Positions 1 to 9,047 of a stretch of DNA of 20,656 nucleotides are shown here, piece after piece. Position 1 is the stretch's first letter; every line of letters starts with the position of its first letter. The notes below the pieces were generated by a model. The model was not told the origin of the DNA, did not search any database, and saw only the letters and a list, made by a program, of their open reading frames with translations. Location: positions 1 through 20,656 of the IMG/VR virus record IMGVR_UViG_3300012147_000112, one strand, 5' to 3'. The position numbers and the translations under genes are program-made. The DNA comes from a virus.

Positions 1-921
1 CAAATTGACTTGTTTGAATAAGAACTCCAGATGAGGGTTCAAAACTTTTCTAGTAACAGACGAAACCTGCCCGCTAATGTCCTGACCCAAAAGATTGATC
101 GCTCCACCACCAAGACGGATACCGGCAGACTGAGCGTATTTTTGCACATCCCGGACGGCGGACTCACTGTTGTTTCTACCACTGGGATTGTTCATCCAAT
201 CCACAACACTTCTAACACCAGAAGAAAGTAGAGTTTCTTCTTCTGAATAATTAAACGAATAAGAAGCACTTAAAGAATCTGGCATATAAAGAGCAATCGT
301 ATCAACTAAAGTTTTTCTTTTACCGAGAAGATCCTTCTTAGTCTGTAGGGATTCATCAGATACGGAGTTAACTCTATTTGTAAGAGAATTGATTTTATTA
401 AAATCTGTTAGACTTTCCCTTTGATCTGCGATACCATCATTCTCAGGTCTGTTGACTGGAAAATTAAAGAAATTCTCTGATTCTATTTGACCCGCACTGG
501 CAGAACCATCTTCATCATTACCATTACCATCACCACCAAAAAATTCACCGAATCCTGTTTTTGTATCTGAGAATAATCGCCTTGCTCTGTTAGCGGTGGC
601 GTTGCCTACACTATTTGCTCCAATGGAAGCAATATTTTTTACGGCGAGTGCTGCATCTAATACGCTAATTCCCTCTACTTTAAACATCTGAAACATGACG
701 AAGTGACCGGGATTTTGAACATTGGTCAGATCTTCCGGGTAGGCATGGAAATTTGGAGTTTTATTGTCGAAAAGAAGTTTAAGAGTCGGGTCTTTTTGAG
801 CCCCGGGATGGTCGTCCGTAGTGAATGCGGCATCGCCCGCGAACCCGTTACCGTTTAAAATGCGAAACGATTCGTCCGAGGACATAGTTTGTCCAAAACC
901 AAAGTCAGCAAAGTCAGGCAT
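1..921 (-). CDS. 48: Baseplate tail-tube cap protein, T4 gp48-like (3' end outside window)
   Basis: The 307 visible residues run from ATG at 921 to the window edge with no stop, so the C-terminus is missing. T4 gp48 caps the baseplate and, with gp54, starts tail-tube polymerisation. What is seen: an N-terminal Gly/Asp-rich segment, then a YPEDL...NPGHFVMFQ block (about residues 61-80) typical of this family, a low-complexity Gly/Asn/Asp linker (about 128-140), and at the edge NPHLEFLFKQVNL, which matches the conserved NP-x-(L/M)-E...F stretch that precedes the last tube-like beta strands. T4 gp48 is about 364 residues, so roughly 50-60 residues are probably lost. The start follows the tape-measure stop directly (TAAATG) with GGGGAG just upstream. 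Position right after the tape measure matches T4 order 29-48. The family call is from recalled motifs; gp54 is the alternative. Confidence 0.75.
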   Translation of the reverse strand, partial: MPDFADFGFGQTMSSDESFRILNGNGFAGDAAFTTDDHPGAQKDPTLKLLFDNKTPNFHAYPEDLTNVQNPGHFVMFQMFKVEGISVLDAALAVKNIASIGANSVGNATANRARRLFSDTKTGFGEFFGGDGNGNDEDGSASAGQIESENFFNFPVNRPENDGIADQRESLTDFNKINSLTNRVNSVSDESLQTKKDLLGKRKTLVDTIALYMPDSLSASYSFNYSEEETLLSSGVRSVVDWMNNPSGRNNSESAVRDVQKYAQSAGIRLGGGAINLLGQDISGQVSSVTRKVLNPHLEFLFKQVNL

Positions 922-3081
922 TTATCTACTCCCCGCGTTCATACTCATTAGGTTATATTGTCGATCAACATATTCCGTACTGCCAACTATGGTGGTGCTA
1001 TTACCACCACCTGAATTCTGTTTCTGTCCAAGCATTTTCGTTATTGCATTTAAAGCAGTCATACCCTGAATATGTTGCGCTTCAAGAGTAGCAGCGTTAG
1101 ATTCGGCATTTCTTGTCTTATTAGCCTGTAATATCCGAACGGCCTCTTCACTAAACCCTGCTTCTGTCATATTTTTGTACTTGTCAGCACCCGAACCCTT
1201 AATAAATTTCTTTACCCTATTATATTCGGGCATATCAATACCATGACCTTCTAAAAAAGAATTTCTTTCATTAATCGCGGCCTTTTCGAAAGGATTTATT
1301 CCTTTCGCAAGATCGAGTGCAGTTTGGACTGGATTTTTACCTATTTCTATCAGTACGCCAAACATGCTTGCCATCATAGAAAAGAAGTCTCTAACTCCAA
1401 AAATAAATTTTGGAATCTCCGTGGATATTTTATCGAAGATCGGACTTACGATGTCCATAACATGTTTGGAAAGCCACATGACACCCTTTACTATAAGTTT
1501 GTAGGGAAGAATAGAGTAGTAAAGCATTTGACCTAAAAGACCAGTTTCTTCAGAGACAGAACCGTCCTCCGTAAGTCCTAACATGGAAAATATCTTATTT
1601 ACTAGCCATTTAATTCCTGAAACGATTCCATCAATTGGAGCCGATATCGCTAGAAGAACACCATCAAGGAATCTTCCGTCCTTGAAAGCGGCGACGGCAT
1701 CCTTGGCAACATTCAGGAATGTCTCCATGTCAAAGATACCGAGAGTCACAAATTCCATAAGACCGCCGAAAATACCGATTAATATACCCGGGAGGCCACC
1801 TATTTCTTTGTATCCCTTAAAGGCCCCTCGTATGGCTTCAAAACCGGCTACTAAGATATTTAAAAAGGGAACAAATTTCATCACAGCCAGTGCAATTTTT
1901 CCAATCCGACCAACGAAAGGAAGTCCTTTAAGCATATTTTTGATTGCTGCACCTATTTGAGTCATAACTTTACTTTGGAAGAAAACTGCTGTATGAAGTC
2001 TAATCGCAAAGAAAATATGGCTTATTTTCTTCAAAATCCCAGGAACTGTGCTATCCAAAGATCCAACTAATTTTGATATCATAGGAAAATATGCAGAAAA
2101 TTTAAAAACAGATCCTAATCCCCTGTGTATGATATTATCTATTACTCCTACGGATCTTCTCACAACATTAAGGAAATCTTCAGATCTAAAAAATTTATTA
2201 AATGTTTTGAATATGTCCTTTACAGTCGATTTTATCGCTTTACCCACCGGACCTTTAATAAGAAAATCAATATAAATTTTCTTCGCTCTCATTACAAATT
2301 CAACCATAGTTGCAAAAGCAAGTGTAAAGGATGACATAAGCATGGGACCGATGGAAGCCAAAAATAGACCTCCGCCCGGAATCGCATCAAAGAATCTTTG
2401 AATTCCACTACCTCCACCTAAGTTATTTCGATCTCGATCGTTAAACTTAGATCCGTCTTCCCTGCCAAGAATTCCATCCAATAGTAATGATAAGAATCTT
2501 TTGTTTTCTTCTTTACCTTCGGTCGTTCCTTTAGCAATACGAACCAGAGCCTCTATACCTTTGGCCGCTTTAGTCTCTTGAATAAAGGATAGACGAAGTA
2601 ACTTTGATCTTGCCATTTCCGCACGATCGCTCTGCTTCTCTCTAACTCTTCTCTGACGCTCTGACGAGAATGGTCTGAAAGATCTTAGGAACGCATTAAA
2701 TTTTCCCCAAAGTCCTTCTCGACCACCCAACTGAATTTCGACCAATGTGTCTAGATTCGTTTTAGACTTCAACGAACTAAGTAACAACTGGTAATTGATA
2801 TCTACTAGTTCACCCGATTGACCGCTGCCTTTTGCGATGGTATGCTCTAATTGACTTGCATTATTTCTGAGCGTATCAACAATCATCTTAGCATTTTGGA
2901 CAGATCCATCTTGCACTTTATCAACAGAGATACGGACATCATCAGTCTTTTTGTTAAGATCTGTTATATTCTTTTTTAACAATGCAACATTTGAGTTGGA
3001 AGAATTTTGCTTTCGCAGTTCATTAATGAACTTGCTAAAGTCTCCGTTAAAATCGCCGGGTTGTGATTGTTTTGATATCAT
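922..3081 (-). CDS. Tail tape-measure / baseplate hub protein, gp29-like
   Basis: 719 residues. Tape-measure proteins fill the tail tube, set its length and help DNA pass into the cell. Residues 1-120 are polar and predicted helical/coiled-coil; 140-200 are very basic and charged; a glycine-rich turn (221-238) leads into strong hydrophobic stretches at about 238-262, 354-365 and 385-450, the last Gly-rich and able to span a membrane; the C-terminal third is amphipathic. This pattern (coiled coil, hydrophobic centre, no Cys) and the place between the gp26-like chaperone-type genes and gp48 are the basis of the call; T4 gp29 is 590 residues. The start ATG overlaps the stop of the 56-residue gene as ATGA, implying translational coupling. 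No obvious enzymatic domain or lysozyme motif was recognised. The identity rests mostly on context and composition. Confidence 0.65.
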   Translation of the reverse strand: MISKQSQPGDFNGDFSKFINELRKQNSSNSNVALLKKNITDLNKKTDDVRISVDKVQDGSVQNAKMIVDTLRNNASQLEHTIAKGSGQSGELVDINYQLLLSSLKSKTNLDTLVEIQLGGREGLWGKFNAFLRSFRPFSSERQRRVREKQSDRAEMARSKLLRLSFIQETKAAKGIEALVRIAKGTTEGKEENKRFLSLLLDGILGREDGSKFNDRDRNNLGGGSGIQRFFDAIPGGGLFLASIGPMLMSSFTLAFATMVEFVMRAKKIYIDFLIKGPVGKAIKSTVKDIFKTFNKFFRSEDFLNVVRRSVGVIDNIIHRGLGSVFKFSAYFPMISKLVGSLDSTVPGILKKISHIFFAIRLHTAVFFQSKVMTQIGAAIKNMLKGLPFVGRIGKIALAVMKFVPFLNILVAGFEAIRGAFKGYKEIGGLPGILIGIFGGLMEFVTLGIFDMETFLNVAKDAVAAFKDGRFLDGVLLAISAPIDGIVSGIKWLVNKIFSMLGLTEDGSVSEETGLLGQMLYYSILPYKLIVKGVMWLSKHVMDIVSPIFDKISTEIPKFIFGVRDFFSMMASMFGVLIEIGKNPVQTALDLAKGINPFEKAAINERNSFLEGHGIDMPEYNRVKKFIKGSGADKYKNMTEAGFSEEAVRILQANKTRNAESNAATLEAQHIQGMTALNAITKMLGQKQNSGGGNSTTIVGSTEYVDRQYNLMSMNAGSR

Positions 3082-3248
3082 TTATTTTTCAACTGCTCTT
3101 CTTGATTTGTTAAGTGCTGGTCTAGTAGGTTTAAGTAACTTTCTCGCTCCCAAGGTATCATATTTTCCAGTTCTTCTATTAGAAATCCATTCATTTTCAT
3201 TGAAAAGTTTATTCTCATATGATTTTCAACCGAATCATATAAGTTCAT
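3078..3248 (-). CDS. Small tail-assembly protein, likely second half of a gp26 frameshift fusion
   Basis: A 56-residue reading frame starting MNLYDSVENHM and ending ...EEQLKNK. It contains IPWERESYLNLL, which resembles the (M/I)P-(F/W)-E-x-E-x-Y-x-x-L motif common in small proteins encoded just before phage tape-measure genes. Its ATG shares a base with the gp26 stop (TAATG) and its TGA overlaps the tape-measure ATG (ATGA), so it bridges the two genes exactly. No good ribosome binding site lies close to its ATG; the only SD-like run, GGAGGG, is 21 bases away. It can be read as a free protein by stop-restart, or as the C-terminal extension of gp26 by -1 frameshift (see the regulatory entry). 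Likely a tail-assembly chaperone role, analogous to the T part of lambda gpGT or to T4 gp51/gp28; unproven. Confidence 0.8.
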   Translation of the reverse strand: MNLYDSVENHMRINFSMKMNGFLIEELENMIPWERESYLNLLDQHLTNQEEQLKNK

Positions 3249-3275
3249 TAGGAGAAAAAATTTAGCAGTCCCTCC
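3214..3275 (-). promoter_or_regulatory. Candidate programmed -1 ribosomal frameshift site
   Basis: On the minus strand, in order: GGAGGG (3275-3270), a 9-base gap, the heptamer TTTTTTC (3260-3254) read in the gp26 frame as T TTT TTC, a 10-base spacer, then an 11-bp hairpin with arms CTTATATGATT (3243-3233) and AATCATATGAG (3224-3214), one G-T pair, 8-base loop. AAATTTT immediately before is also a slippery heptamer in frame. A -1 slip would read CTC CTA ATG and continue into the 56-residue gene, giving about 293 residues. All three elements are in the known arrangement of bacterial -1 sites such as dnaX. The stem is AT-rich, so strength is uncertain. Confidence 0.6.
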
Positions 3276-3958
3276 ACAGTAATTTCTTCTGATTCTTTAC
3301 ATTTCGGACATTTCATTACAAGTTGATGAGATATTTTTGGCGCATTTGAAAATGTTGCTTCCAAAATTTTATTGAATGTAATTTGATCTAACTGTTCTAT
3401 AAACTCAGAAACCTCTTGCAGTGTGATATCCATTCCAACTTTGTAGACCGTATCGCCGTCCCAAATGTGAGTAACACACTGTTCTACGATATGAAAGAAC
3501 TGAGCGATGTCACTCTTTTCCTCCTGATTGATCGCCATTTCAGCGGTCGGAAGTTTGAAGCGCATTCCGACAGTCTCGTTGACCAAATGCTCTAGAACAT
3601 GACCATCTTTGAATAGCGGTTTGATGCTGGAAATGTCGATCTCGACAGAAAATTCATTGGAACATGCCTTACATGTGTGACCAATTTTAGTAGTTTCACC
3701 AACAGAAATTGCTCTGATTTGAAGGAACATCCACTCTAGGTCGGCCTGAGCAATTTTCTTACAATCTATATTTTCTGTTACAATGCAAGAATTTACCATG
3801 TTGAAAACTGCCAACATTTGCTCGGCTGGCTTTTCGGACTGACTTGCCATGAGCATTGCTTTTTCTTCTTTAACAGTGTACGCTCTGTATTCAACGGTTT
3901 GTTTCGTAGTGGGAAGTTGCGTTGAATATGTTTTGATTGCTAGTTTTGGTAACGCCAT
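3248..3958 (-). CDS. 26: Baseplate hub assembly protein, T4 gp26-like (T4_baseplate family)
   Basis: 236 residues. The N-terminus MALPKLAIKTYSTQLP followed by VEYRAYTVKEEKAML is the hallmark opening of the T4 gp26 / T4 baseplate family. Family members are needed for baseplate hub assembly; in many phages the gene pair at this position acts as a tail-assembly chaperone. Two CxxC pairs, C96/C99 and C217/C220, would make a zinc ribbon. T4 gp26 is about 208 residues. The start has GAGGAAATAGAGTACA before the ATG. The gene sits just upstream of a 56-residue gene and the tape measure, and its last codons contain a slippery TTTTTTC, so two products (236 and about 293 residues) are possible. The family call is from recognition of the N-terminal motif; the chaperone role is inference. 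Confidence 0.8.
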   Translation of the reverse strand: MALPKLAIKTYSTQLPTTKQTVEYRAYTVKEEKAMLMASQSEKPAEQMLAVFNMVNSCIVTENIDCKKIAQADLEWMFLQIRAISVGETTKIGHTCKACSNEFSVEIDISSIKPLFKDGHVLEHLVNETVGMRFKLPTAEMAINQEEKSDIAQFFHIVEQCVTHIWDGDTVYKVGMDITLQEVSEFIEQLDQITFNKILEATFSNAPKISHQLVMKCPKCKESEEITVEGLLNFFS

Positions 3959-3981: not shown

Positions 3982-4812
3982 TTAAAATGATATTATGTTT
4001 CCACCCGAACCACGACCGAAAATTTTACCGTATATCTGACCACCTCTTGTGGCAACATCCACGACCTTGCCTCCGGAGGCTCTCTTTTCGCTCGCGTAGA
4101 TCGCGTCATTGATTGCCGTATCAGAATTACCTATAGCCAATTCAAGATCCGAATCCTTTATTAGCGGCAGTGGTTGCCAGTCTCTAAAGGTAAATGTAAT
4201 GCCTATTCGATGGTATGTATCCCTATTACTGTGCGCAAGGGGAAGTTCCATCATTCCTATCGGGTACGCTCTTTTTAACATACATTGATATACGATAGTT
4301 TCTTCGCCGATCATAATGTTTGGCATTGGGTTCGGATTGCCACCCAGACCAATATTATTCTTGATAGATTCTTTAAATCTATCAAACATATCTCCCAATA
4401 TAGAACCTGATCCTTCTTTTTGCTCGGTGTAATCAGCGAATTGAGCAATATAAATATCCCTAGCATAATTGTCGTAATATTCATGATTATGATTATCATA
4501 CGAAACCATTAAGTCCATCCACTCTTCAAAAATTCTTTTTTCGTACATGTCACTACCCACTCTAAAAATCATGGTCATTTCATTCATGTACTCTCGACTG
4601 TATGGGAATTTGAAAGCATTTCCATAGTGCCTCACATCAGCCGTGAAGATGTTCATACCCGGAAAGAAGCATTCTTCGCAGGAGATCGACAGTCTGCGAG
4701 ATGTTTCTATCGGAGATATTATTCCGGTCGGTTCGCTAAAAAATAGCCCGTACTGATTGCTTTTTGCGATACCAGTAGTATAAACTTGTGACTTTGCTTC
4801 GATGAAACTCAT
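3982..4812 (-). CDS. Tail-tube-fold protein, probable baseplate tube initiator (gp54-like)
   Basis: 276 residues. T4 gp19, gp48 and gp54 share a tube fold in which a bent beta sandwich forms a six-fold ring. Here residues 20-75 (YGLFFSEPTG ... SCEECFFPG) and the C-terminal part (MLKRAYPIGMMELPLAHSN ... ITFTFRDWQPL) match the first and last strands of that fold, including the aromatic-rich strand ending in a W. Between them is an insertion (about 120-190) rich in Tyr, Asn and Gly with a GSGSILGDMFDRF stretch. The length suits gp54 (320 in T4) better than the gp19 tube protein (163). Its ATG overlaps the stop of the gp2-like gene by 4 bases, and it lies directly before gp26. The choice between gp54 and another tube-like component cannot be settled by reading alone. 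Confidence 0.6.
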   Translation of the reverse strand: MSFIEAKSQVYTTGIAKSNQYGLFFSEPTGIISPIETSRRLSISCEECFFPGMNIFTADVRHYGNAFKFPYSREYMNEMTMIFRVGSDMYEKRIFEEWMDLMVSYDNHNHEYYDNYARDIYIAQFADYTEQKEGSGSILGDMFDRFKESIKNNIGLGGNPNPMPNIMIGEETIVYQCMLKRAYPIGMMELPLAHSNRDTYHRIGITFTFRDWQPLPLIKDSDLELAIGNSDTAINDAIYASEKRASGGKVVDVATRGGQIYGKIFGRGSGGNIISF

Positions 4813-8879: not shown

Positions 8880-9047
8880 TCAGGTTAAATTATCAAACAT
8901 TTTTTCTGCCTTCTCGCAGCACTCAAAACTGCATACCCACTGTCCATTAACGAGTTCACATCCCTCTGATCCAAAAAAATCATCATCTAGATCCGTGGTA
9001 TCGACCGGAGTCTGACATACTACGCAGGGTTGCTTTTCATCAGTCAT
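8880..9047 (-). CDS. Small Cys-rich zinc-ribbon-like protein
   Basis: A 55-residue protein beginning MTDEKQPCVVCQTPVD and ending KAEKMFDNLT. Cysteines are at 8, 11, 30, 39, 43 and 44: CVVC, then C30 and the CSFECC cluster, enough to bind one zinc. This resembles short treble-clef or MYM-type zinc fingers (C-x2-C ... C-x3-C), but no family is assigned. GGAGTAGAGAAA precedes the ATG, a good site, and the start overlaps the upstream gene's stop by 8 bases. The domain is acidic, so nucleic acid binding is not obvious; protein contact is as likely. Confidence 0.75.
   Translation of the reverse strand: MTDEKQPCVVCQTPVDTTDLDDDFFGSEGCELVNGQWVCSFECCEKAEKMFDNLT

Follow-up and report, generated by a model that had tools for sequence, protein, structure and literature searches.

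Sequence evidence for a probable programmed -1 frameshift joining gp26 and gp51, a proposed tail-assembly chaperone pair, in the T4 superfamily

In lambda, as in P2 (E/E') and similar phages, a short chaperone gene directly 5' of the tape measure gene is extended in the -1 frame at low abundance, and the products (gpG and gpGT in lambda) serve assembly, not the virion. In E. coli dnaX, an element resembling a Shine-Dalgarno (SD) motif is located about 10 nt 5' of the slippery heptamer, and a stem-loop follows downstream. In T4, gene 29 precedes gene 48. A 2016 review describes the G-T frameshift as widely conserved among phages with long tails, "except T4" (PMC5009743). Even in T4, the contractile phage studied most thoroughly, the chaperones of tail length are unsettled: gp26 and gp51 are listed as hub assembly chaperones, with conflicting older data on gp26 standing beside that listing, and gp51 is essential, absent from the particle and of function not known (PMC3004832).

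Here, a junction of two genes is analysed in a 20,656-base IMG/VR record, the whole of which is called the window. We conclude with high confidence that a programmed -1 ribosomal frameshift produces gp26 and a gp26-gp51 fusion, which would form the tail-assembly chaperone pair of the T4 superfamily, and that T4-type phages use two paralogous genes for the short and long forms. The arrangement resembles that of lambda in being a -1 extension of a short gene in front of the presumed tape measure gene. It differs in that no sequence homology between the lambda proteins and gp26 was detected, gp26 has about 236 residues and a zinc-ribbon-like CxxC pair, the tail comprises only about 60 residues, and the stimulator is SD-like as in dnaX. 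The window shares with dnaX the upstream SD-like element and the downstream stem-loop, whereas the heptamer is T TTT TTC instead of A AAA AAG, and frameshifting would yield the longer product here and the shorter one in dnaX. With T4, the likeness is one of homology, the window's gp26 being homologous to T4 gp26 and its -1 tail to residues 200-249 of T4 gp51; the difference is that T4 has two divergent genes without a slip site and the window has one gene and a putative frameshift.

The junction in the window

The junction region is on the minus strand, where the tail tube gene, the gp26-like gene, a 56-codon open reading frame, a gene for a 719-residue protein and a gp48-like gene follow each other in this order (Table 1). 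The gp26-like protein matches the profile PF12322 with 170 bits, against a curated cut-off of 24.5. The 56-codon frame matches, in addition to its own family, the last approximately 40 positions of the gp26 profile phrog_150, which implies that some members of the family carry the gp26 and gp51 parts in one chain.

Table 1. Features of the gp26-gp51 junction and neighbouring genes in the window
Feature	Position	Strand	Basis
Tail tube gene	3982..4812	-	
gp26-like gene, 236 aa, 0-frame short form (G-like)	3248..3958	-	PF12322 T4_baseplate, E 6.5e-50; phrog_150 baseplate hub, E 7e-51; AF2 model, pLDDT 93
GGAGGG, putative internal SD-like stimulator, 9 nt 5' of the slip site	3270..3275	-	Sequence; anti-SD duplex -9.8 kcal/mol in the window
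Slippery heptamer T TTT TTC, X XXY YYZ phase of gp26	3254..3260	-	Sequence; TTTTTTN in phase in relatives (counts in the text)
gp26 0-frame stop codon TAA	3248..3250	-	Shares one base with the ATG (3248-3246) of the 56-codon gene (TAATG)
11-bp stem-loop 3' of the slip site, 10-nt spacer	3214..3243	-	-10.2 kcal/mol, z -2.8 versus dinucleotide shuffles; family-wide excess structure at that place
Putative -1 frame extension (slip site and gp51-like tail), long form (GT-like)	3078..3260	-	Open frame; -1 protein constraint from the heptamer on; tail profile versus T4 gp51
56-codon open reading frame, gp51 homologue, if read from its own ATG	3078..3248	-	phrog_634 "baseplate hub assembly catalyst", E 1.5e-13
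719-aa gene, candidate tape measure protein, ATGA overlap with the gp51-like gene	922..3081	-	Position only, between gp51-like and gp48-like genes
gp48-like baseplate tail tube cap, incomplete (runs off the window)	1..921	-	phrog_230, E 3e-13

An earlier note on this DNA had described an in-phase heptamer in the last codons of the gp26-like gene, a GGAGGG ending nine bases before it, an 11-bp hairpin ten bases after it, and a -1 frame open into the 56-residue gene that would give a fusion of about 293 residues. All of these elements were found on the minus strand. The gene ends with GTG GAG GGA CTG CTA AAT TTT TTC TCC TAA, so that the heptamer lies just 5' of the stop codon; the stem of the hairpin is formed by 3243-3233 pairing with 3224-3214 around an 8-nt loop; and the fusion comprises 235 residues, LL and 56 further residues, that is, 293 in total. 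The hairpin of the window by itself reaches only z -0.8 when compared with a synonymous-codon null. Among the 6,205 codons in the genes of the window, T TTT TTY occurs in phase only twice. The second occurrence is at codon 22 of a gene for a CxxC-containing protein of 55 residues (8880-9047, minus strand).

Very probably, as judged from these sequence features, the ribosome slips back by one base at the end of gp26. Most ribosomes would read gp26 up to the TAA and release the 236-residue protein. A fraction would pause, with the anti-SD of the 16S rRNA paired to GGAGGG and the hairpin ahead, and the two tRNA-Phe on TTT TTC would shift back by one base to pair with TTT TTT, so that the ribosome would go on in the -1 frame, read the gp51-like part and release the fusion protein. 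Both the slippage and its rate are inferred. In addition, coupled re-initiation at the overlapping ATG may add some free gp51 in the window.

Conservation of the junction among relatives

The junction was compared in two sets of loci. The first set comprised 99 analysed loci, namely 12 named phages, 80 viral contigs found with the gp26 profile, 6 distant phages and the window; the second comprised 80 contigs picked by the gp51-like part alone, and 4 of its loci are identical to loci of the first. The groups covered include Kyanoviridae, Pootjesviridae, Schizotequatrovirus and Ceceduovirus (both Straboviridae), Menderavirus, Emdodecavirus and unclassified phages. A search for closer relatives of the window via its gp26 or tail tube gene retrieved only one near-identical contig, which ends before the junction.

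A T TTT TTN heptamer is in phase at the equivalent place in 98 of 99 loci of the first set and in all 80 of the second, or 174 of the 175 loci outside the Ackermannviridae when both sets, including the window, are taken together. The lone exception, contig L055, reads TCG TTT TTT TAA. The codon before the heptamer is AGT, TCT, GAT, AAT, GGT or CGT, always with T at the third position. The conservation of a Phe-Phe end of gp26 could, in principle, produce such a sequence by chance or through the amino acid constraint, as FF is indeed conserved, Phe is encoded by TTT in 72% of cases, and 59-81% of the Ser, Asp and Asn codons end in T. However, the joint frequency expected from such usage is about one half and thus far from the observed counts, the SD, structure and frame-switch signals described below are independent of the coding of FF, and in phages with two genes FF is coded TTC TTT or has been lost, so that we consider this explanation hardly credible.

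The same run of T could also be a site of transcriptional slippage, a known alternative in bacteria, in which case a fraction of the mRNAs would have an altered number of U and would encode the fusion directly; the length of the run, six to eight T, would be compatible with this. Yet it is the phase that is conserved and not the length of the run, which usually consists of six T closed by C: TTTTTTC is found in 75 of 98 heptamers of the first set, next to 21 TTTTTTT, one TTTTTTG and one TTTTTTA, and in 70 of the 80 loci of the second set. The variants ending in G and A fit slippage of tandem tRNAs, and an SD-like element together with a downstream structure is typical of ribosomal slippage, which makes a transcriptional origin of the fusion very improbable.

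Constraint on the encoded proteins was analysed for 73 junctions dereplicated at 80% identity, using a column-shuffle null at the protein level. In frame 0, constraint is present up to the heptamer (z 4-12) and absent beyond it, and in frame -1 it is about zero before the heptamer and mostly z 5-12 directly after it; these z-scores and those given below rank signals and are not probabilities, because the loci share ancestry and were selected as best hits, and the shuffles leave the relatedness in. Arg, encoded by CGN, follows FF in the -1 frame at 69 of 98 loci, and the 0-frame residue at this place varies among Ala, Gly, Glu, Val and Asp. A +1 frameshift was rejected, as the +1 frame is without constraint after the site.

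Both stimulators recur at the family level. The free energy of the duplex with the anti-SD has a minimum at -11/-12, with a mean of -7.2 kcal/mol and z -11 versus synonymous recoding. RNA folding in excess of a synonymous null is confined to about +7 to +65 (z about -10.7) and is not seen at most other offsets on either side. A single consensus hairpin for the family was considered and dropped, as RNAalifold returned no consensus fold across the family and the best covarying register after the heptamer, i+j=42, differs from that of the window's hairpin; therefore, only a localised excess of folding is claimed. The earlier note had named, as the outcome that would speak against its reading, relatives that keep both genes and lose the phase of the heptamer and the hairpin. 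The opposite was observed outside the Ackermannviridae, where the phase is kept and the SD-like and downstream-structure signals are localised around the heptamer. As for the hairpin, the excess folding just 3' of the slip site is retained, but the exact register seen in the window is not.

Translational coupling would explain the junction without any frameshift: ribosomes terminating at the gp26 TAA would restart at the overlapping ATG and produce a free gp51 of 56 residues, and the heptamer would be incidental. The TAATG of the window, the ATG that some relatives have at +2, +5 or +14 after the stop, and the annotation of gp51 as a separate gene in most databases are all consistent with such a mechanism. 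However, 25 of 98 loci of the first set and 26 of 80 of the second, or about 29% of loci, have no ATG, GTG or TTG among codons 1-13 of the -1 frame, despite the fact that this stretch encodes conserved protein, and in several records the tail carries no annotation or is given a late start. The window itself has an ATG for the 56-codon gene, and the closest relative of its gp51 part (L144) has T TTT TTG and lacks a start codon near the junction. Thus, independent initiation cannot be the general mechanism, and at the startless loci the -1 extension would depend on frameshifting rather than on a start of its own. Furthermore, the -1 frame is constrained ahead of any start, and the SD-like element, located about 22 nt from the window's ATG and thus too distant for initiation, keeps a fixed distance to the heptamer. 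Coupling as the sole origin of gp51 is therefore very improbable. Taken together, the in-phase heptamer, the upstream SD-like element, the downstream structure and the switch of the constrained frame support the frameshift proposed in the earlier note, and programmed -1 frameshifting is by a wide margin the best explanation that these sequence signals support.

Three Ackermannviridae (YC, SKML-39 and PM10) have no heptamer and have kept the gp51-like tail in the -1 frame. A T TTC tetramer is present at the place of the heptamer, and PM10 lacks an ATG for the tail. These phages may use another mode of recoding or initiation for the gp51-like tail.

Relation to the T4 genes 26 and 51

T4 gp26 (208 residues) and T4 gp51 (249 residues) both belong to PF12322; the match extends to profile position 235 for gp26 and to 280 for gp51. 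The profile of the -1 tail aligns without gaps to residues 200-249 of T4 gp51 (probability 97.2, E 2.9e-11) and yielded no alignment to gp26. T4 gp26 ends where the slip site lies, and T4 gp51 is a continuous chain of the gp26 domain and the tail. T4 gp51 thus corresponds, in a single frame, to the fusion, and T4 gp26 corresponds to the short form.

The number of PF12322 copies agrees with this view. In 20 genomes, a single copy was found in 17 (14 with the slip site and the 3 Ackermannviridae without it), and two copies were found in T4, Aeromonas phage 31 and RB43. No gp26 end that could be read in the two-gene phages carries T TTT TTN (in L132 the gene is cut off). In an unrooted tree of PF12322, the proteins of the frameshift type and of the Ackermannviridae are separated from gp26 and gp51 (support 96/95), and gp51 forms one clade (100/99), the long-branched gp26 of RB43 being placed apart. 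A single duplication in the T4-type lineage would be expected to produce this split and the gp51 clade. In RB43, gp51 and gp26 are arranged in tandem on one strand with an 8-nt overlap (L104, 1501-2794), which is possibly an intermediate between a single frameshifted gene and the divergent pair of T4.

The earlier note had read the device as that of a T4-like phage using a frameshift for gp26. This reading holds, with the refinement that, as far as can be judged from sequence comparison, the frameshift appears to be the normal state in most of the T4 superfamily sampled and not a peculiarity of one phage, T4-type phages having two paralogous genes instead. Likewise, the 56-residue gene would be joined to gp26 as had been suggested and can now be named a gp51 homologue. 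It is likely that T4 is no true exception: gp26 would be the chaperone of the superfamily, the frameshift would be ancestral, and after a duplication in the T4-type lineage the short and the long form would come from separate genes, gp26 and gp51. The production of both forms from two genes may explain why T4 has seemed to be an exception to a rule that is widespread among phages. If so, the superfamily would offer a clear-cut example in which gene duplication took the place of a recoding signal.

Chaperone role, tape measure gene and annotation

By analogy, gp26/gp26-gp51 would play in the T4 superfamily the part that gpG/gpGT play in lambda, and both forms would chaperone the tape measure protein encoded next door. 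If gp26 and gp51 are indeed the short and long forms of the chaperone, their roles can be tested by analogy to lambda, for example with respect to their ratio and their binding to the tape measure protein. The earlier note had located the junction just before the tape measure gene. The next gene does occupy the position of gene 29 in front of a gp48-like gene, and is a candidate tape measure gene by that position; homology to tape measure proteins was dropped as an argument, as the 719-residue protein had no homologue or family among phages or viral contigs or among PHROG or Pfam-type profiles. Its neighbours have hundreds of detectable relatives. In phiM12, a tape-measure-like gene is located one gene further downstream.

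Two structures named as tail assembly chaperones, 3FGX and 2OB9 (PMC9603447), were compared with the AF2 model of gp26. The similarity is weak, with probabilities of 0.66 for 2OB9 (HK97 gp13) and 0.89 for 3FGX (E 0.95 and 0.76, respectively) over about 60 residues. The same folds gave no match to a model of a T4-type gp51, which stood in for the trans-frame fusion, and a PDB sequence search with gp26 and gp51 gave none either.

In 5.39 million open-access papers, with subscription journals mostly outside the scope of the search, no description of a gp26/gp51 frameshift or of their paralogy was found. The GenBank records that were opened list two separate genes or omit the second one. The proposed frameshift would correct the gp51 entry in hundreds of genomes of cyanophages and other T4-like phages, where the protein is at present absent, given a start that is too late, or entered as a free protein. 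The public records of Syn1, P-SSM7, S-PRM1 and Asswx_1 are examples, as gp51 is misannotated in all four, being started too late or left out, because there is no start codon near the junction.
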